Of a stretch of 39,840 nucleotides of DNA, positions 1,454 to 38,558 are shown in pieces. Location: positions 1 through 39,840 of IMG/VR virus record IMGVR_UViG_3300044714_000068; one strand, written 5' to 3'. Every line of letters starts with the position of its first letter. The stretch's first letter is position 1. Under the pieces are notes generated by a model. It ran no database searches, was not told the origin of the DNA, and worked only from the letters and a program-made list of their open reading frames with translations. This DNA comes from a virus. A program made the translations under genes and the position numbers.

Positions 1454-1705
1454 TTAGTCATCCATATTTGGTAAGTGAAAGTGTTTAGCAAACGGTTCGG
1501 TTGGCGCGCTCGGTTTATTCTTTGTCGCTAATACAATATTCTGTATCACTTCATTATCATCAACGTTCACGTTCTCTAATAGCAACTCACCACGATTGAG
1601 TTTGGCCAGCATCTCGTTCATTTGTGCTTTCTGTTGAGGGGTTAAGCTGTTCCATAGTAATTTGGCTTGTCTGCGTGACATCTTGGGGTCTGCTATACTT
1701 TTCAT
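1454..1705 (-). CDS. Unknown small protein, 83 aa
   Basis: Start chosen at MKSIADPK because AGGAG lies about 8 bases upstream. The protein is polar and helical in its first half (RQAKLLWNSLTPQQKAQMNEMLAKL) with a disordered-looking C-terminus. Its first 119 bases overlap the 3' end of the gene at 1587-1904 in another frame, an unusually long overlap for this genome. It is the last gene of a leftward eight-gene run. No family recognised. Confidence 0.55.
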   Translation of the reverse strand: MKSIADPKMSRRQAKLLWNSLTPQQKAQMNEMLAKLNRGELLLENVNVDDNEVIQNIVLATKNKPSAPTEPFAKHFHLPNMDD

Positions 1706-1904
1706 GTAATTTCTCCTGATTGTATGCGTCTAAACATTGAAGGAAATAGTTTATCGCTTCCTGATCTTTAATAATAATCGGAAACTTAGCATGTAAACGA
1801 ATGAATACCATTAGTTCCGTACTTTCTAAGCTATCTCTATCAGTATCCACATAATATATATCGCTTAGGTCAATCCATAAGGTGCGGGTTATTTGGGTTA
1901 GCAT
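1587..1904 (-). CDS. Unknown small protein, 105 aa
   Basis: The N-terminal 65 residues look like a small beta-rich domain (TLWIDLSDIYYV, then ELMVFIRLHAKFPIII followed by a helix); the remaining 40 residues are polar and probably disordered. The last 119 bases are shared with the gene at 1454-1705 in a different frame, so the tail may be constrained by, or secondary to, that gene. The start overlaps the preceding stop by one base. A similar layout (LVPINRIKYV ... SIKIVSDDG) occurs in the protein at 2763-2969, suggesting distant relatedness. Confidence 0.55.
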   Translation of the reverse strand: MLTQITRTLWIDLSDIYYVDTDRDSLESTELMVFIRLHAKFPIIIKDQEAINYFLQCLDAYNQEKLHEKYSRPQDVTQTSQITMEQLNPSTESTNERDAGQTQSW

Positions 1905-2191
1905 TATTTATCCTTAGGTGGTGATGGTAAAGTCATCCAGTATGGATAACATTCGAATGGAGTAAGCGATGCGAAGTGAGATAGTGTGTGGTCGGATCGA
2001 TAATTTGTATCTAACCCCCATCCATTACCACGATAAGATGCTATTTCAATATGTCTATCACCATTAAAAACCAATACACGCTCGTGAATATTTGGCATTT
2101 TTTCTTTAATTGAAATCCACTCATGCTGACAATACTTAATAGTTATTTCATCTAAATTTCGTGGCTGCATATTAAAATCAATGGTTGTCAT
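1904..2191 (-). CDS. DUF551-domain phage protein, 95 aa
   Basis: The protein has the landmarks of DUF551: WISIKEKMPNIHERVLVF near residues 25-42 and a C-terminal YWMTLPSPPK close to the usual THWMPLPEPP. DUF551 proteins are common in phages and prophages and have no established function. The start overlaps the previous gene's stop by one base, and it lies mid-way in the leftward island between scaffold and coat. The family assignment is firm; the role is unknown. Confidence 0.78.
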   Translation of the reverse strand: MTTIDFNMQPRNLDEITIKYCQHEWISIKEKMPNIHERVLVFNGDRHIEIASYRGNGWGLDTNYRSDHTLSHFASLTPFECYPYWMTLPSPPKDK

Positions 2192-2382
2192 TATTCCAAT
2201 TCCTTATATTGAATACTAACAATGAAGATTCCATTTTTTGTCAGGGGATTTGGTAAAAATCTAGCTAGTGGATTTATCATAGGGTCATTGCACTCTCTAA
2301 TATCATCAATAATATCGCTTATTACTGCGCCTTTATCTGGATAGACTTTACGGAATAGGATGAAATCGTTTTTAGTCGTCAT
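2191..2382 (-). CDS. Unknown small protein, 63 aa
   Basis: The start codon overlaps the stop of the upstream gene (ATGA), implying translational coupling. It reads as a small alpha/beta protein ending with a beta strand (GIFIVSIQYKELE). No signal peptide, membrane segment or cysteine pair. No family recognised. Confidence 0.55.
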   Translation of the reverse strand: MTTKNDFILFRKVYPDKGAVISDIIDDIRECNDPMINPLARFLPNPLTKNGIFIVSIQYKELE

Positions 2383-2759
2383 TCATTATCCTCATCATCC
2401 AAATCATCCTCTGGTGTAGGCTTTTCATTTTTCTTTCGCTTATCAATAGCTTTAATCAACTCTGGTTTTTTTAAATTATTAAGAGAAATAATTTTAATTA
2501 GCGATCTATTTAGGTCTTTGATTAAGAGTTTTATATCATCTATCTCTTTTTTGTTAGTTTTAATAAGAAATTCCTGATCTTTCCTGAAGTCCTCTAGTTT
2601 TTTGCTAATTTCTTTAGAGAATTTCTCTTTCTGGGTGTCTATTGATCGTTTTAAATATTCATCCAGCATGAATAGGTGTACTCCATATTTAGGCTTTGGG
2701 TCGTTGATGTTGTAGTGTCCATAGTAACTATGCATATTTCCTTGTTTTCCTTCGTACAT
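2379..2759 (-). CDS. Coiled-coil protein with acidic tail, 126 aa
   Basis: Residues about 30-105 are rich in Lys, Glu, Ile and Leu with heptad spacing, predicting a long coiled coil. The tail is strongly acidic (PTPEDDLDDEDNE). AAAGGAAAA upstream supports the start at 2759; M9 is an alternative. Coiled coil plus acidic tail suggests a protein-protein or DNA-mimic role, but this is only inference. Confidence 0.6.
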   Translation of the reverse strand: MYEGKQGNMHSYYGHYNINDPKPKYGVHLFMLDEYLKRSIDTQKEKFSKEISKKLEDFRKDQEFLIKTNKKEIDDIKLLIKDLNRSLIKIISLNNLKKPELIKAIDKRKKNEKPTPEDDLDDEDNE

Positions 2760-2762
2760 TAT

Positions 2763-2969
2763 TCATTTTCCTTTTAGTATCTTCTTTATTTCTTCATAAC
2801 GAGCTATCGCTTTTTCTTCCTCATGTCCAAAATGTTCTTCCCAATCACCATCATCAGATACGATTTTTATTGAAGTTTTGTCGCCATATAAAAAATTCAC
2901 ATATTTAATTCTATTTATTGGCACTAATGCTTCATTTCCTAAAAATGTAATAGTTTCTAGAAAATTCAT
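2763..2969 (-). CDS. Unknown small protein, 68 aa
   Basis: A small alpha/beta protein: a first strand (ETITFLG), LVPINRIKYVNF, SIKIVSDDGDWEEHF, then a charged C-terminal helix (EEEKAIARYEEIKKIL). The start overlaps the upstream stop. The pattern of hydrophobic strands followed by a helix resembles many small phage proteins of unknown role, including the one at 1587-1904. Confidence 0.55.
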   Translation of the reverse strand: MNFLETITFLGNEALVPINRIKYVNFLYGDKTSIKIVSDDGDWEEHFGHEEEKAIARYEEIKKILKGK

Positions 2970-3226
2970 TTTTTCACCTTCTTATTCGCTTTATGTTTTT
3001 TAAAGCACTCATTTTCATAAGCGGTGTAATCAGCGCTTGCTGATAATATATCATCATCTCTATGGATAACCTGACCAAGTTTTAGTGCTGAATCGACTAT
3101 AAATGCCAATGCATGACATTGATCTGATTCTGTTTCATATAAGAAGCAGCAAGCCTCTCCTAAATGATCTAACGCGGTTTTAAGTATGTCTTTTTCACTT
3201 AATTTGTTACCTTTTTCGTCTATCAT
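2966..3226 (-). CDS. Unknown small helical protein, 86 aa
   Basis: The start is placed at MIDEKGNKLSE because AAAGGAG lies 8 bases upstream; an in-frame start 13 codons earlier lacks a ribosome site and would overlap the previous gene. It is mainly helical (DILKTALDHLGEACCFLYE, then CHALAFIVDSALKLGQVI) with four cysteines scattered and no zinc pattern, and a Lys-rich end. No family recognised. Confidence 0.6.
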   Translation of the reverse strand: MIDEKGNKLSEKDILKTALDHLGEACCFLYETESDQCHALAFIVDSALKLGQVIHRDDDILSASADYTAYENECFKKHKANKKVKK

Positions 3227-3239
3227 TTTTATGCTCCTT

Positions 3240-3374
3240 TTAGTTATTACATAAACAAGATGCATAACAGTTCAAGCATTCACTAGAATCTTGATCACCT
3301 TGTATTCTGGGATTATCACAGCAGGTTTTTAAGCAAGGGCATTTGTCTTCAATTTCGCTATCTGGTTTTTGCAT
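3240..3374 (-). CDS. Cysteine-rich mini-protein, 44 aa
   Basis: This frame encodes nine cysteines in 44 residues (CPC, CC, and C-x2-C, C-x-C near the end). GAGAGGTG upstream of the ATG can act as ribosome site. The density of cysteines suggests a metal-binding protein or disulphide-rich peptide; without a signal peptide, metal binding is more likely. It is the first gene of the leftward island that faces the coat gene, so its promoter must lie in 3375-3599. Confidence 0.55.
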   Translation of the reverse strand: MQKPDSEIEDKCPCLKTCCDNPRIQGDQDSSECLNCYASCLCNN

Positions 3375-3393
3375 GTTTCACCTCTCTCGTGAT

Positions 3394-3569: not shown

Positions 3570-3599
3570 TTAACTTTAATTGTTTTGGGAGACATATCC

Positions 3600-4853
3600 A
3601 TGTCCTTTTCCGGCAATTCATTTTCTACTACTAATTATATCTTAGACGAAACATTCATCCGGTTTATCAATTATCTTAACTTCGCCAAAGTGGCAAACAG
3701 AAACCTTGAAGGTGACTTCAAAGGTCTGAAATATGCAACTGGCCAAACCATTAACTATCGTTTAGAAGAAAGATATTTAGGCGGTTTCGGTGCGACTGCG
3801 ACATCCGAAGCTCGTGTTCAAGTTGTCAGACCATTAACTATTGATACACAGTTCCACACGATGGTTGAGTTCTCTGGCTTTGAACTGACCTTTGATCGCG
3901 CACGTGATCAGCCATATCTCGATCAGATGTTAAATCCACGCGCTAAGCGCTTGGCTAACATGGTCGAGTCATTTATTGCGACACAAAATTTCCAATTAGA
4001 TACTTACCAAGCAACTGGTACACCTGGCGTTCCTATTGATCAATCGACTGTATTCAATACCGATGCTTATATGACGGAATTGGGTATTCCAGAAGATGGT
4101 AATAGATACTGGGCAAACTCACCTTCTGTTTCCGCTACATTGACCAATGCTCTGTACAACGTATTTAACATGACAGTTAACCGTGGTGCATTGTTAGATG
4201 GCTTTATTGGTCACTTATCTGGTTTTGACTTCTTCAAGACTAATTTCTTGAATAGGCAAATTGCTGGTGTTGGTGAAACGGGTGGTACGCCTCCAACTGG
4301 TTATTCATTGGCAGGTACAGTAACGAATGGCCCTATTACTGGTGGCAACACGATTGTTGTTACAGGTTTGGTGGCTAACCAAGCAGCGGCATTTAACGTT
4401 GGCGACATCATTACAGTTGCGGCAGCTTCCGGTGTTTATATGGTTAATCCACTAACATATCAACCATTAGCTCAAACCGCTCAGTTTGTTGTGACCGCAC
4501 AGGTTGCATCTGATGGTTCGGGTAATGCAACTATTCCTGTCAATCCAACGATTGTCATTAGTGGAGCAAGACAAAATATTTCTGCTGCTATTCCAAATGG
4601 TGCGCAATTGTATTTGGCTAATAGTCATAACGTTTCTATCGCATTCCACAACCAAGCGATTGTGTTTGCTGCGCCTCCGATTAAAGAATTAAAAGGTGGT
4701 GTTGAAGCGGTAACTTCCTACAGTGACCTGTACAAAATGGCAATGACGTACTCTCTTGGTGCTGATATCCGCAACTATGTTCAATTAGATCGTATTGACA
4801 TTATTGCTGGTGTGGCTATTAACCCAGAGTTTGCTGTACGCGTTATGTCATAA
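3600..4853 (+). CDS. Major capsid (coat) protein, P22 coat family
   Basis: The start ATG at 3600 has GGGAG just upstream; an in-frame TTG at 3585 is rejected. The 417-aa length is close to P22 coat (430). Residues about 40-130 hold the HK97-fold N-terminal region with FDRARDQPYLDQ; residues about 240-345 look like the P22-type inserted beta domain, including GDIITVAAASGVYMVNP and FVVTAQVASDGSGNATI. It forms the icosahedral shell around the scaffold. In P22 the coat gene follows scaffold directly; here about 3.6 kb of small genes intervenes. A strong terminator follows, so coat can be transcribed at a different level from the tail genes. Confidence 0.93.
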   Translation: MSFSGNSFSTTNYILDETFIRFINYLNFAKVANRNLEGDFKGLKYATGQTINYRLEERYLGGFGATATSEARVQVVRPLTIDTQFHTMVEFSGFELTFDRARDQPYLDQMLNPRAKRLANMVESFIATQNFQLDTYQATGTPGVPIDQSTVFNTDAYMTELGIPEDGNRYWANSPSVSATLTNALYNVFNMTVNRGALLDGFIGHLSGFDFFKTNFLNRQIAGVGETGGTPPTGYSLAGTVTNGPITGGNTIVVTGLVANQAAAFNVGDIITVAAASGVYMVNPLTYQPLAQTAQFVVTAQVASDGSGNATIPVNPTIVISGARQNISAAIPNGAQLYLANSHNVSIAFHNQAIVFAAPPIKELKGGVEAVTSYSDLYKMAMTYSLGADIRNYVQLDRIDIIAGVAINPEFAVRVMS

Positions 4854-33736: not shown

Positions 33737-33953
33737 CTCAAAATTAGAAAAAGATAATCGCAGTTTTTTGAAAAAACTATGGTGTAAATTGTTTCACACT
33801 GATGAGCGGTATATTGATAGTACCGCTACCGCAAGAATTAAAACCATATGCTTGGCTCATAAATGTTTTAATAAAAGTCTTTTTATAAGTAAATTTTGGT
33901 TGGAGGATGAGTTTGGACAAGAAGTAAAGGAATGGCCGCGTGGACGAAAGTAA
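33729..33953 (+). CDS. Unknown basic small protein, 74 aa
   Basis: Basic, with FLKKLWCKLFHTDERYID near the N-terminus and ISKFWLEDEFGQEVKEW near the end. Overlaps both neighbours (8 and 14 bases), so it is translated in a coupled chain ending in the large terminase. No zinc pattern; three cysteines scattered. No family recognised. Confidence 0.55.
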   Translation: MDDSKLEKDNRSFLKKLWCKLFHTDERYIDSTATARIKTICLAHKCFNKSLFISKFWLEDEFGQEVKEWPRGRK

Positions 33954-35457
33954 ACTAGAAACTCTCCGTGATCTCAAAAAATTTGCGCCTAAGTTTCTCA
34001 TCATCCGTACTAAAGCTGGCAATCCTAAATCATTTGAACTGAATAGAGCGCAAGAATACATTCACTTGAGACTTGAGACACAGTTACGTGAGACTGGTAA
34101 GATACGTGCGGTCATCCTCAAAGGTCGTCAACAAGGATGCTCAACATACATTCAAGCAAGATATTTTCACAGGGTGGTAACAGGCCGTGGCAAGAAAGCA
34201 TTCATCCTTACGCATGATAAAGAGGCTACTAAAAATCTATTTACTATGGCTAACCGCTTCTATGACAATTTGGAGCCTGGGTTGGTTCCTGTCGCCGATA
34301 CCGCAAACGCTAAGGAATTATATTTCCGACAATTCGATAGCGGGTATTCTGTTGGTACCGCTGGTAATAAGTCTGTTGGAAGGTCTCAGACTATTCAACT
34401 CTTCCATGGATCAGAGGTAGCCTTCTGGCAATTTGCTGAAGAACACGCAAAAGGTATTCTACAGGCAATTAGTAGTGAACCAGGAACGGAGGTGATACTT
34501 GAGTCAACAGCAAACGGAATCGGAAATTATTTTCATCAGCGCTGGGTCGCTGCAATGTCTGGTGAGAGCGAGTATCAAGCTATATTTGTGCCTTGGTACT
34601 GGCAGAACGAATACACGCATGATGCTGTAGGTTTCCAGCCTAATGATGAGGAAGAGTATCTATTAAAGCTATATAGCCAAGATGGTTTAACGAATGCCCA
34701 TTTGTCTTGGCGACGAATAAAGATTGCAGATTTAAGCAAAGACGCAGACGCAGCTCATGAACAGTTCAAACAAGAATATCCATTCTCCGCACGTGAAGCT
34801 TTTCTTAATCCTGTAGCTAATGTGTTTATCAATGCTAAGCACGTGATTAACGCACGCAAGGCTAATGTAGAGGGAATAGGACGATTAATCATTGGTGTCG
34901 ATGTCGCAGTGAGCGATAGAGATAGAACGGCTATTATACGTAGGCGTGGACGATTGGCTTACAACCTAGAAAAGTTTGGCAATCATAATACGATGGAAAT
35001 ATGCGGACGATTGAAACGTATCATTACTGAAGAAAAGCCAGACAGAGTATATGTAGACTGTATTGGTATTGGCGCTGGTGTAGTCGATAGAATGCAAGAA
35101 ATGGGCTATGAATGCGTAGAAGGTGTGAATGTCGCACGCAGTGCTAATGAAAAAGAGAAGTTTAAGAATCTACGCGCAGAATTACATAGTGAGATGCGTG
35201 ATTGGTTAACTCAAGAAATGCCAGTACAAATTCCAGATTCGGATGACCTCCACGGAGAAATGACATCTTATGGCTATAAGTTTACGTCTAATGGCCAGTT
35301 ACAGATTGAGTCTAAGGATGACTTGAGGGCGCGTGGTATGCCAAGTCCAGATGGTAATGATGCGCTGATGCTCACAATGTATGCTGGCCAAGGTGGTGGC
35401 TATATGCCGATTGAGGTGCCGCAGAAAATGGCTGGGGAAGATAGGATGTTTCGCTAG
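33940..35457 (+). CDS. terL: Terminase large subunit
   Basis: A 505-aa motor-nuclease (P22 gp2 is 499 aa). GTG start with AAAGG upstream. ATPase: Walker A-like GRQQGCST at residues 62-69, Walker B VILES at 185-189, followed by coupling residues TANG. RNase H-like nuclease: IIGVDVAVSDRDRTAII (about 317-333), DRVYVDCIGIG (about 365) and DGNDALML (about 470), supplying the three acidic metal ligands. It pumps and cuts concatemeric DNA at the portal. Its stop overlaps the GTG of the methyltransferase gene. Confidence 0.95.
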   Translation: MDESKLETLRDLKKFAPKFLIIRTKAGNPKSFELNRAQEYIHLRLETQLRETGKIRAVILKGRQQGCSTYIQARYFHRVVTGRGKKAFILTHDKEATKNLFTMANRFYDNLEPGLVPVADTANAKELYFRQFDSGYSVGTAGNKSVGRSQTIQLFHGSEVAFWQFAEEHAKGILQAISSEPGTEVILESTANGIGNYFHQRWVAAMSGESEYQAIFVPWYWQNEYTHDAVGFQPNDEEEYLLKLYSQDGLTNAHLSWRRIKIADLSKDADAAHEQFKQEYPFSAREAFLNPVANVFINAKHVINARKANVEGIGRLIIGVDVAVSDRDRTAIIRRRGRLAYNLEKFGNHNTMEICGRLKRIITEEKPDRVYVDCIGIGAGVVDRMQEMGYECVEGVNVARSANEKEKFKNLRAELHSEMRDWLTQEMPVQIPDSDDLHGEMTSYGYKFTSNGQLQIESKDDLRARGMPSPDGNDALMLTMYAGQGGGYMPIEVPQKMAGEDRMFR

Positions 35458-36347
35458 TGAGGGAATTCACTCATCTCGATTTATTCTCTGGTATTGGTGG
35501 GTTCGCATTAGCTGCGAGATGGGCTGGTTTTAAGACAGTAGCATTCTGTGAAATCGATCCTTTTTGTAGAAAAGTTTTAAATAAGCATTGGCCATTAGTA
35601 CCAATTGCACATGATATTAAAACATTTAGCTATCATGGCGAGGTTGATATATTGACTGGTGGATTTCCTTGCCAGCCTTTCAGTATAGCTGGTAAGAAAA
35701 AAGGAAAAGATGATGATAGATACTTATGGCCTGAAATGTTTCGAATTATTAGAAAGTGCAAGCCCACTTGGATTATTGCGGAAAACGTTGCTGGGATCGT
35801 GGGAATGGAACTCGACAATATCGTTAATGATTTGGAAAGTGAGGATTACAGAGTGCAATCATATCTTATTCCAGCTTGTGCAGCAGGCGCGCCACACAAA
35901 AGGGAAAGGCTATGGATTATTGCCAACCGTGACGGTGAGCGATTCAACGAGTGGAGCAATAATCGGCAAGAAAGATACTTTCAAGATGACTGGAAACGGA
36001 ACGTTGAGGCGTTACAATCAGAATGGACACAATTCAAGCCTAAGTCTTGGGAGACTTTTAACGCTCAAGAATGGCTCGATGCTGCCAACACCGCAAGCAT
36101 CAGATCATCGACCAAGAGGGAATCTAAACAACCCATGCATTCAGAGACGAATAGAGAAAGGACAACAACTAATGCTATCAATGATCTTGACGAGTTTCAG
36201 TGGGAAGAAGATCAACCCCCAGTTTCTGGAATGGATGATGGGCTACCCCAAGGATTGGACCGATGTAAGTCCTTAGGAAATGCCATTGTTCCACAAGTAG
36301 CATTCCCAATGTTTGCGCTTATCAAGTCAATTCTGCTAAGATATTAG
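35457..36347 (+). CDS. C5-cytosine DNA methyltransferase
   Basis: All key motifs are present in 296 aa: I FSGIGG (10-15), IV GGFPCQPFS with catalytic Cys72, VI ENV (110-112), VIII KRERLWIIAN (148-157), and a C-terminal MDDGLPQGLDRCKSLGNAIVPQVA (motifs IX/X, about 258-282). The target-recognition part (160-255) is polar and low in hydrophobics. GTG start overlaps the terL stop, with AGGA upstream. It probably protects phage DNA from host restriction. Insertion between terL and portal is unusual in P22-like phages. Residues 86-273 are overlapped by another long open frame (see next entry). Confidence 0.92.
   Translation: MREFTHLDLFSGIGGFALAARWAGFKTVAFCEIDPFCRKVLNKHWPLVPIAHDIKTFSYHGEVDILTGGFPCQPFSIAGKKKGKDDDRYLWPEMFRIIRKCKPTWIIAENVAGIVGMELDNIVNDLESEDYRVQSYLIPACAAGAPHKRERLWIIANRDGERFNEWSNNRQERYFQDDWKRNVEALQSEWTQFKPKSWETFNAQEWLDAANTASIRSSTKRESKQPMHSETNRERTTTNAINDLDEFQWEEDQPPVSGMDDGLPQGLDRCKSLGNAIVPQVAFPMFALIKSILLRY
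35713..36276 (+). CDS. Overlapping second-frame ORF inside the methyltransferase gene, 187 aa
   Basis: Read in the +1 frame of the methyltransferase gene, AAAGGA lies 7 bases before ATG 35713 (ATG 35710 is an alternative). The translation has recognisable phage motifs: YGLKCFELLESASPLGLL, GKGYGLLPTVTVSDSTSGAI, MLPTPQASDHRP and INPQFLEWMMGYPKDWTD; proteins with LLPTPxASD and LNPxFxEWMMGFPxGWT are frequent beside phage methyltransferases. The last motif is the same DNA as the SGMDDGLPQGLDRCKSL of the methyltransferase. Either a real overprinted gene or a conserved shadow of the conserved frame. Confidence 0.4.
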   Translation: MIDTYGLKCFELLESASPLGLLRKTLLGSWEWNSTISLMIWKVRITECNHILFQLVQQARHTKGKGYGLLPTVTVSDSTSGAIIGKKDTFKMTGNGTLRRYNQNGHNSSLSLGRLLTLKNGSMLPTPQASDHRPRGNLNNPCIQRRIEKGQQLMLSMILTSFSGKKINPQFLEWMMGYPKDWTDVSP

Positions 36348-36380
36348 CCATTATTCTTCGCATTGCTAAGCAGGCAGCAC

Positions 36381-38558
36381 ATGGCAGTCACCAAAGACCC
36401 CGAAATCTGTACCACCATCCGCGACCGTGTAGACAAATGGAATAAATACTGGACAATTAACCGTTCATATTATTATGACTGGGTTGATTTCATCATGGGT
36501 GACCAATGGCGAGAGGATGAATCTAAATTATTCGAGCGCTATAACAAAGTACCTCTCACATTTAACAAACTTGGCGTGCTGATGAACCACATGTTAGGCG
36601 ATCAGATGCAAAATACGCCTAATTTGCAGATTCTTCCTGATGAGCAAGTCCCTGTTAAGACCGCAGAGACTAGAGCGGCATTGATCAAGCAAATATCTCT
36701 CAATTCTGATGCTAAAACGGTTTATCAAGTTGCTTTTTGGCAATCAATTGTCGGTGGATATGGTGCGTATCGAATCTATACTGATTATGCTGCTAATGCT
36801 GGGAAAAATGCGTTCAGTCTTGATATTAAAATAGGTTCATTTAACGATCCAAACAAATGTTATTGGGATATTGCAGCTACGACACTATGCAAAACCGATG
36901 GTATGTACGCTGGTTTCCAAACAAGAATGTCACGCAAGAAGTTTAGAGATAAATATGGCCGCAAAGTTGAGCAAGACATTGGTACCTCGTCGATCACTGA
37001 AGATTCAACGATGGCATTTGCGGACGATGACTCAATCACCCAAATTGATGACTTTGAAAGAGTGGCCAAAAAAGTCAAAATATATAAGCTATCTGATAAC
37101 GAAGGCTCAGTAATTGATAGTGATGAGTTTAAATCATTAGAGAAGATCAATATTGATGGCAAGAAGATTGCAATATACAACGGTCAACCTGTCACGATTG
37201 TAGAAACACGCGAAACAGTTAAATACACCATTAAACATCGTCAGATTGCGGGTGACTATGTATTAGAAGAGACAGAATTCCCAAGCGAGCAATTGCCTAT
37301 CGTATTTGTTGATCAGAAAAGTTATTACACGAAGCAACAGCAACAGCTCACTCGATCATTTTTCAAAGATGTCAAAGACGCTCAACGATATCTTAATTAT
37401 TTGGCTACCCAGTCAGCGTACATCATGAAGGTATCACGCTATGATCAGTTCATGGCACCAAGGAAATGTGTGTCAGCACCTGATACTGCGCAGCAGTGGC
37501 GTGATCCTTCCGTTGTGCGTGGAGCGCTAGTATATGATGAAACGCCAAGTGGTGCCAAGCCCGAACCATTACATCCACCCGAATTATCCGCATCACTCAC
37601 GCAACAGTATGAACGCACGCTCATGGATTTACAGAGCGGCACAGGGATGTATAACACGCAATTAGGAGAATTGGGCAATGAGGTTTCAGGGACGGCTATT
37701 GATGCGCGCACGCAGCGTGGCACTAAAAATACTTACGTACCGTATAACTCGCTTAATATTGCGATTGCAGTTGGCGGCGAGATTATCGATGAGATGATTC
37801 CGAATGTTTATGATACGCAACGTTTGTTAATGTTGACGATGCCAGATAGTGAAAGCCAACCAATATCCATTAATAAACCAACGGATGAATATGGTCTCAA
37901 TATTGAGAATGATATGACTCAGGGTCGATATAAGATACGATTAAAACCTGGACCAAGTTATGAGGGGCAAAAAACAGAAGCCCTTCAGTCGTTACAGTTA
38001 GTATTACAGGCCGATAAATCCGGCCAAGTGTTCCCAATGATTGCCGATCTATATGCTGAAAATTTGCCTTTAGATAATAATCTTGAATTACGTAATCGTT
38101 TAAGGACATTAGTGCCACCTGAAATCATTGAAGCTGGTAAGACTGGTAAGCCATTGCCACCTAAGCCGCCACAGCCCTCACCTGATGCTATGTTAGTTCA
38201 GCTAAAGCAGCAAGAGATACAGCAAAAGGCTCAAGCTGCGCAACAAGAAACGCAAATTAAGATGATGGACTTAGACCGAAAGCAGAAAGAATTGCAATTG
38301 AAAGCGTTAGAATCTAATCATGAAATGTCAATTGAGATGCAAAAGATTGAGGCCGAGAAAGAAGAAGCGGCGGCACAGTTGCAAGAGTCAATTCTAAGAT
38401 ATCAAGCTGAAACACAACGATTAGAAGCTGATCTCAATATCAGTCAATCACAAAACTTGATTAAGCTGTTAACGCATTCTAGTCAATTGCAGCATGAGAA
38501 AGAGATGCACCATAAAGAACTAGCACATAAATCAAGAACAGAGAACAGGAATCCATAG
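36381..38558 (+). CDS. Portal protein, P22 gp1 family
   Basis: Start at 36381 gives 725 residues, the length of P22 portal; a TTG 18 bases upstream is rejected. The N-terminus (DKWNKYWTINRSYYYDWVDFIMGDQWREDE ... NKLGVLMNHMLGDQMQNTPNLQI) and core (FVDQKSYYTKQQQQLTRSFFKDVKDAQRYLNYLATQSAYIMK; LGELGNEVSGTAIDARTQRGT) match the family. Residues about 605-720 form a long Gln/Glu/Lys coiled coil, the barrel region. It forms the dodecameric DNA channel and docks terminase and the gp4-like protein. Confidence 0.93.
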   Translation: MAVTKDPEICTTIRDRVDKWNKYWTINRSYYYDWVDFIMGDQWREDESKLFERYNKVPLTFNKLGVLMNHMLGDQMQNTPNLQILPDEQVPVKTAETRAALIKQISLNSDAKTVYQVAFWQSIVGGYGAYRIYTDYAANAGKNAFSLDIKIGSFNDPNKCYWDIAATTLCKTDGMYAGFQTRMSRKKFRDKYGRKVEQDIGTSSITEDSTMAFADDDSITQIDDFERVAKKVKIYKLSDNEGSVIDSDEFKSLEKINIDGKKIAIYNGQPVTIVETRETVKYTIKHRQIAGDYVLEETEFPSEQLPIVFVDQKSYYTKQQQQLTRSFFKDVKDAQRYLNYLATQSAYIMKVSRYDQFMAPRKCVSAPDTAQQWRDPSVVRGALVYDETPSGAKPEPLHPPELSASLTQQYERTLMDLQSGTGMYNTQLGELGNEVSGTAIDARTQRGTKNTYVPYNSLNIAIAVGGEIIDEMIPNVYDTQRLLMLTMPDSESQPISINKPTDEYGLNIENDMTQGRYKIRLKPGPSYEGQKTEALQSLQLVLQADKSGQVFPMIADLYAENLPLDNNLELRNRLRTLVPPEIIEAGKTGKPLPPKPPQPSPDAMLVQLKQQEIQQKAQAAQQETQIKMMDLDRKQKELQLKALESNHEMSIEMQKIEAEKEEAAAQLQESILRYQAETQRLEADLNISQSQNLIKLLTHSSQLQHEKEMHHKELAHKSRTENRNP

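Follow-up and report, generated by a model that had tools for sequence, protein, structure and literature searches.

Gene layout at the locus

The analyzed window, a phage record of 39,840 nucleotides, contained a C5-cytosine methyltransferase gene at 35457–36347, here referred to as alpha, between the gene for the terminase large subunit (33940–35457) and the portal gene (36363–38558). A P22-type coat protein (PF11651) was encoded at 3585–4853. Because this coat protein occurs together with a methyltransferase between the terminase large subunit and portal genes, the record is probably a P22-like podovirus. Alpha, like the other features of this locus described below, lies on the plus strand. 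It encoded 296 aa with motifs I–VIII and X, and matched PF00145 (E = 2.6e-48) and phrog_363.

The +1 frame of alpha was stop-free over 35689–36273 and closed with a TAG at 36274–36276. This second frame, here referred to as beta, can start from an ATG at 35710 (188 aa) or from an ATG at 35713 (187 aa), and matched phrog_1008 (E = 1.2e-18). A preliminary description of this DNA, made from the sequence alone, had proposed a 187-aa second-frame ORF at 35713–36276 within the methyltransferase gene, preceded by a ribosome site. The ORF is real, with its open frame and TAG stop confirmed, and a Shine–Dalgarno-like AAAGGA (35700–35705) is located 7 nt before ATG 35713. The second-frame motifs quoted there were likewise all present: LLPTVTVSD at 35917–35943, LPTPQASD at 36082–36105 and INPQFLEWMMGYPKDWT at 36211–36261. 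The same description had the ORF overlapping the conserved C-terminal DDGLP...GNAIVP region of alpha. This held for DDGLP but not for GNAIVP, part of motif X, which starts at 36276, at the stop of the ORF. Motif X (SLGNAIVPQV, 36270–36299) was assigned by reading the sequence and from the alpha profile, and is single-coded past the beta stop.

The beta start was conserved across part of the family. At the position aligned with ATG 35713, 52 loci had AYG and 46 of these had ATG, vs. about 47% expected from the share of GAT among aspartate codons (binomial p = 4e-10, a value that is overstated since the sequences are related). For some members, the alpha codons specifying K-K/R-K-G and D-D also serve as the beta ribosome site and start. 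The Shine–Dalgarno core was present in only 30 of 100 loci, and a subgroup in which G replaces D must begin beta elsewhere.

Openness of the second frame

Relatives of both frames were gathered from viral contigs, phage records, plasmids and bacterial genomes. As a null, synonymous codons were permuted within each gene, keeping the methyltransferase protein and codon usage fixed. Among 101 distinct methyltransferase loci, the longest +1 run had a median of 227 codons vs. 95 in the synonymous shuffles. A long +1 ORF was found in every one of these loci and exceeded 95% of shuffles in 96 of them; the other five, where it did not, were mostly GC-rich. The third frame behaved as chance predicts (longest run of 53 vs. 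51 in shuffles). For an identical copy of the window gene (L012), the longest +1 run was 195 codons vs. a shuffle mean of 89, and none of 300 shuffles reached 195. The +1 translations also resembled that of the window beyond the shuffle expectation (median z of 6), and this similarity is therefore not forced by the methyltransferase protein.

Stops between motifs VIII and IX were counted over 22,699 codons from 249 loci; beta contained 0, alpha 20 and the third frame 1,196. This motif-based count missed a number of loci; four of the de-overprinted relatives described below (seven in all) were among these and were read by eye. As many of the 249 loci were found via beta, the search itself somewhat favors a stop-free beta frame. 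The 80 loci fetched via alpha, each of which had a long +1 ORF, are independent of this bias, as is the dN/dS result. A search for loci seeded with a narrow beta alignment found alpha in the −1 frame at all 282 loci with a beta match, and 275 of these were stop-free in the overlap.

Selection in each frame

Changes were counted by codon position, and by our own OLGenie-style scheme, in nucleotide alignments of related pairs. Two single-coded segments defined the null for a non-coding +1 frame. In the N-terminal control, dN/dS was 0.11 for alpha and 0.72 for the +1 frame, and past the beta stop the values were 0.14 and 0.87, which sets the null at 0.72–0.87. Over motifs VI–VIII, the double-coded segment that also encodes the N-terminal part of beta (35713–35924), both frames were constrained, with dN/dS of 0.23 for alpha and 0.42 for beta (95% bootstrap, 0.32–0.50). 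In the variable region between motifs VIII and IX (35925–36195), alpha rose to 0.82 (0.66–0.98) and beta fell to 0.27 (0.15–0.42; both 95% bootstrap). The window's own relatives (L014, L095, L096 and L015) gave 0.75 and 0.27 for the same region, and the codon-position pattern flipped in 13 of 13 clusters.

Beta is thus under selection, and the ORF is real and no shadow. The annotated methyltransferase frame is instead the shadow between motifs VIII and IX, because dN/dS there reverses that of the flanking single-coded segments. The preliminary description had left a choice between two overprinted proteins and a shadow of conserved methyltransferase DNA, to be settled by second-frame stops in close homologues and by selection in each frame. 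Close homologues contained no such stops and constraint was not limited to the methyltransferase frame, which supports overprinting.

Exchange of the variable region

Lacticaseibacillus phages of the R9.2 and R9.1 types were 92% identical over motifs I–VIII and 97% identical past the beta stop, but the variable region was only 47% identical. The variable region was likewise swapped in several more pairs that kept about 90% identity over motifs I–VIII, and some closely related pairs showed no variable-region exchange. This pattern looks like the exchange of a specificity module, which would be read in the beta frame.

Conserved motifs and predicted folds

Alpha carried the catalytic PCQ and ENV motifs and a large-domain fold similar to that of M.HhaI, placing it among the C5-cytosine DNA methyltransferases. 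Residues C72 and E109-N110 were invariant in 87 sequences. The alpha consensus proceeded from the variable region directly to DGxPxRxDRLKALGNAIVP and contained no LTPRECARLxGFP-like segment (motif IX). The structural model of alpha was confident for residues 1–160 and for the C-terminal motif X helix (271–296). Residues 161–268 were mostly at pLDDT <55, and across the variable region alpha is predicted to be a disordered linker.

In the variable region, beta encoded a recognition-type region with PTP motifs. It ended in a conserved LNPxxVEWxMGYPxGWT (87 beta proteins; INPQFLEWMMGYPKDWT in the window) that adjoins motif X and had no PF00145 profile match. This motif IX-like segment was assigned by position and pattern, with its M.HhaI counterpart HPRECARVMGYPDSY visible in the alignment. 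The phrog_1008 family matched 86 of the 87 beta proteins, whereas Pfam and NCBIfam searches of the same 87 gave nothing meaningful and a PDB sequence search with the beta profile gave a chance match only. The beta model had moderate confidence in its core (39–57 and 80–115) and low confidence overall. Foldseek and VIA-align searches with it returned no methyltransferase or PDB match, a result that carries little weight given the low model confidence.

De-overprinted relatives

At seven loci, one in a Spirochaetia genome (L148, with the methyltransferase at 2194–3391) and six viral (L294, L299, L302, L332, L333 and L350), alpha closed after motif VIII or decayed further on, leaving 3–10 stops in the overlap, whereas the beta frame was open. 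At all seven, the open beta frame extended past the motif IX-like segment to include motif X. Two of them (L294 and L302) were near-identical over much of their length, so the seven loci are not seven independent events. At loci where alpha need not reach motif X, its middle has decayed and beta has not. A further question raised by the preliminary description was whether the second-frame family exists apart from an overlapping methyltransferase. Part of the family showed this for the half comprising the variable region and motif IX, which occurred with no open methyltransferase frame over it; Pfam did not recognize motifs IX–X in the proteins joining beta to motif X.

Between motifs IX and X of L333 (about 1150–1500), a further frame resembled an HNH-type zinc-binding nuclease segment (CERCGG..HHRDRNPAND..NIETLCQVCH), apparently an insertion. 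Two other loci (L128 at about 2725 and L214 at about 2740, the latter on the same contig as L358) had a lone alpha stop soon after motif VIII, with the remaining alpha frame, motif X included, open. This stop may be a real split or a sequencing error.

A probable two-subunit enzyme encoded in overlapping frames

The reading we favor, with a probability of roughly 85%, is that the locus encodes a two-polypeptide C5-cytosine DNA methyltransferase from two overlapping frames of one gene, in the architecture of M.EcoHK31I. In such an enzyme, alpha would form the catalytic, AdoMet-binding large domain (motifs I–VIII), closed by motif X. Translation of beta would begin within alpha, at a ribosome site and ATG of its own, and the resulting polypeptide would provide the small domain, which comprises motif IX and the variable target-recognition region. 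From motif VIII to motif IX, alpha would be a mere translated linker, a shadow of beta carrying through to motif X. Beta would then bind alpha and read the target sequence, and the enzyme may shield phage DNA from host restriction. The role of beta is thus most likely that of the DNA-recognition subunit.

Beyond the window, we consider it probable that this holds for C5 methyltransferases of phages and bacteria across a large clade. Their specificity would reside in the overprinted frame and the recognition cassette would be exchanged and selected in beta. The annotated frame across the cassette would be a translated shadow kept open only for motif X, decaying once motif X enters the beta frame.

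The alternative that survives best, itself very unlikely, is a programmed +1 frameshift after motif VIII that would fuse the catalytic half of alpha to the recognition half of beta, leaving the beta start unused. Such a shift would yield a single chain with motifs I–VIII, the recognition region and motif IX, joined in the seven relatives by motif X. In the window, however, motif X lies in the alpha frame again, and the shifted product would lack it. The beta frame over motifs VI–VIII is also itself constrained (0.42 vs. the null of 0.72–0.87), and the internal ATG is conserved.

Ranked behind it, and similarly improbable, is that beta is a separate functional protein outside the methyltransferase, such as an anti-restriction or regulatory factor. 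The lack of a fold or family match between beta and known methyltransferase domains would agree with this, but alpha is without a constrained recognition region or motif IX, and beta always accompanies alpha. Beta also ends in the motif IX-like segment, after which the seven relatives have motif X in frame, and it is the variable region coded by beta that is exchanged as a cassette. The second frame is therefore taken as most likely a subunit of the same enzyme rather than an unrelated phage protein.

Least probable, with almost nothing left to it, is a shadow ORF, open and conserved only through conserved methyltransferase DNA: alpha motifs VI–VIII do constrain the +1 frame and five of 101 loci stay within their shuffles, but synonymous shuffles reproduce neither the ORF nor its similarity, the variable region is unconstrained in alpha and constrained in beta, and beta is intact in seven relatives whose alpha frame is full of stops, so that it was rejected on the decayed alpha and the per-frame dN/dS.

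If the locus does encode a two-subunit enzyme, a two-frame layout with few characterized examples would extend across phages and numerous bacterial phyla, in most cases under a single-protein annotation. Cloning, modeling or specificity prediction from alpha alone would use the wrong frame for the recognition region, and the resulting enzyme may be inactive. The family would also offer a clean natural system for the evolution of overlapping genes, in which constraint is readable per frame and the de-overprinted relatives serve as the control.

Comparison with known enzymes and existing annotations

Lee, Kam and Shaw reportedly described in 1995 that the small subunit of M.EcoHK31I (YGGCCR) is encoded in an alternative frame within the large one. 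M.EaeI is a related enzyme. In line with that layout, the window beta is nested entirely within alpha, in the +1 frame, where selection acts on it. M.EcoHK31I consists of two polypeptides, the larger with motifs I–VIII, X and the predicted TRD and the smaller with motif IX only, and the smaller subunit of M.AquI holds motifs IX–X (PMC3404938). Consistent with the published description of M.EcoHK31I, the large polypeptide of the window has motifs I–VIII and X and is without motif IX. Unlike M.EcoHK31I, in which the TRD is placed in the large subunit (PMC3404938), the variable region of the window is constrained only in the small-subunit frame, which would place the recognition region in beta. 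The window gene further differs in being a phage gene with no restriction enzyme adjacent to it in the window.

The seven de-overprinted relatives resemble M.AquI (CYCGRG; two polypeptides split in the variable region) in their division into I–VIII and IX–X. Unlike M.AquI, the window has motif X in the large polypeptide, and its overlap covers beta from end to end; an AquI-like placement of motif X in the small polypeptide was found only in the seven relatives. This series links the EcoHK31I and AquI layouts. Alpha is similar to the single-chain C5 methyltransferase M.HhaI in fold (Z 24.4) and in the motif order I–VIII, X; in M.HhaI, however, the recognition region and motif IX also belong to that frame and chain.

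A search for distant relatives in E. coli genomes recovered four related loci, at least one of them flagged as a pseudogene, but no recognizable EcoHK31I system, and none was recognizable among the plasmid matches listed. A prophage copy in E. coli PCP07014 (L364, 3998–4759) is annotated as a pseudogene with an internal stop: one stop codon cuts alpha, and beta also has a stop, within motifs VI–VIII.

The second-frame family is already present in annotations. Paenibacillus phage proteins Shelly gp56 and Lily gp63 belong to it, annotated respectively as a g55 and a g62 internal gene, and phrog_1008 and the Shelly and Lily records are labeled DNA methyltransferase with no subunit role given. In the literature searched, the scope of which excluded most subscription papers, we found no description of the phage-wide overprinting pattern. 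The layout is known in kind; the present analysis contributes its breadth, the per-frame selection, the assignment of the recognition region to beta and the series of de-overprinted relatives.

Several annotations divide the gene in other ways. KT997847 (L005, 1252–2088) is annotated as an 80-aa N-terminal methyltransferase piece followed by the beta frame as a methyltransferase, with the C-terminal part of alpha unannotated. In Mycobacterium phage Ochi17 (gp73/gp74; L117, 1220–1980), alpha is split between frames and the two parts are annotated as separate DNA methyltransferase genes, and this paired annotation recurs in several related mycobacteriophages. One further locus (L026, about 1550–3280) carried a tandem pair of alpha/beta overprinted methyltransferases.
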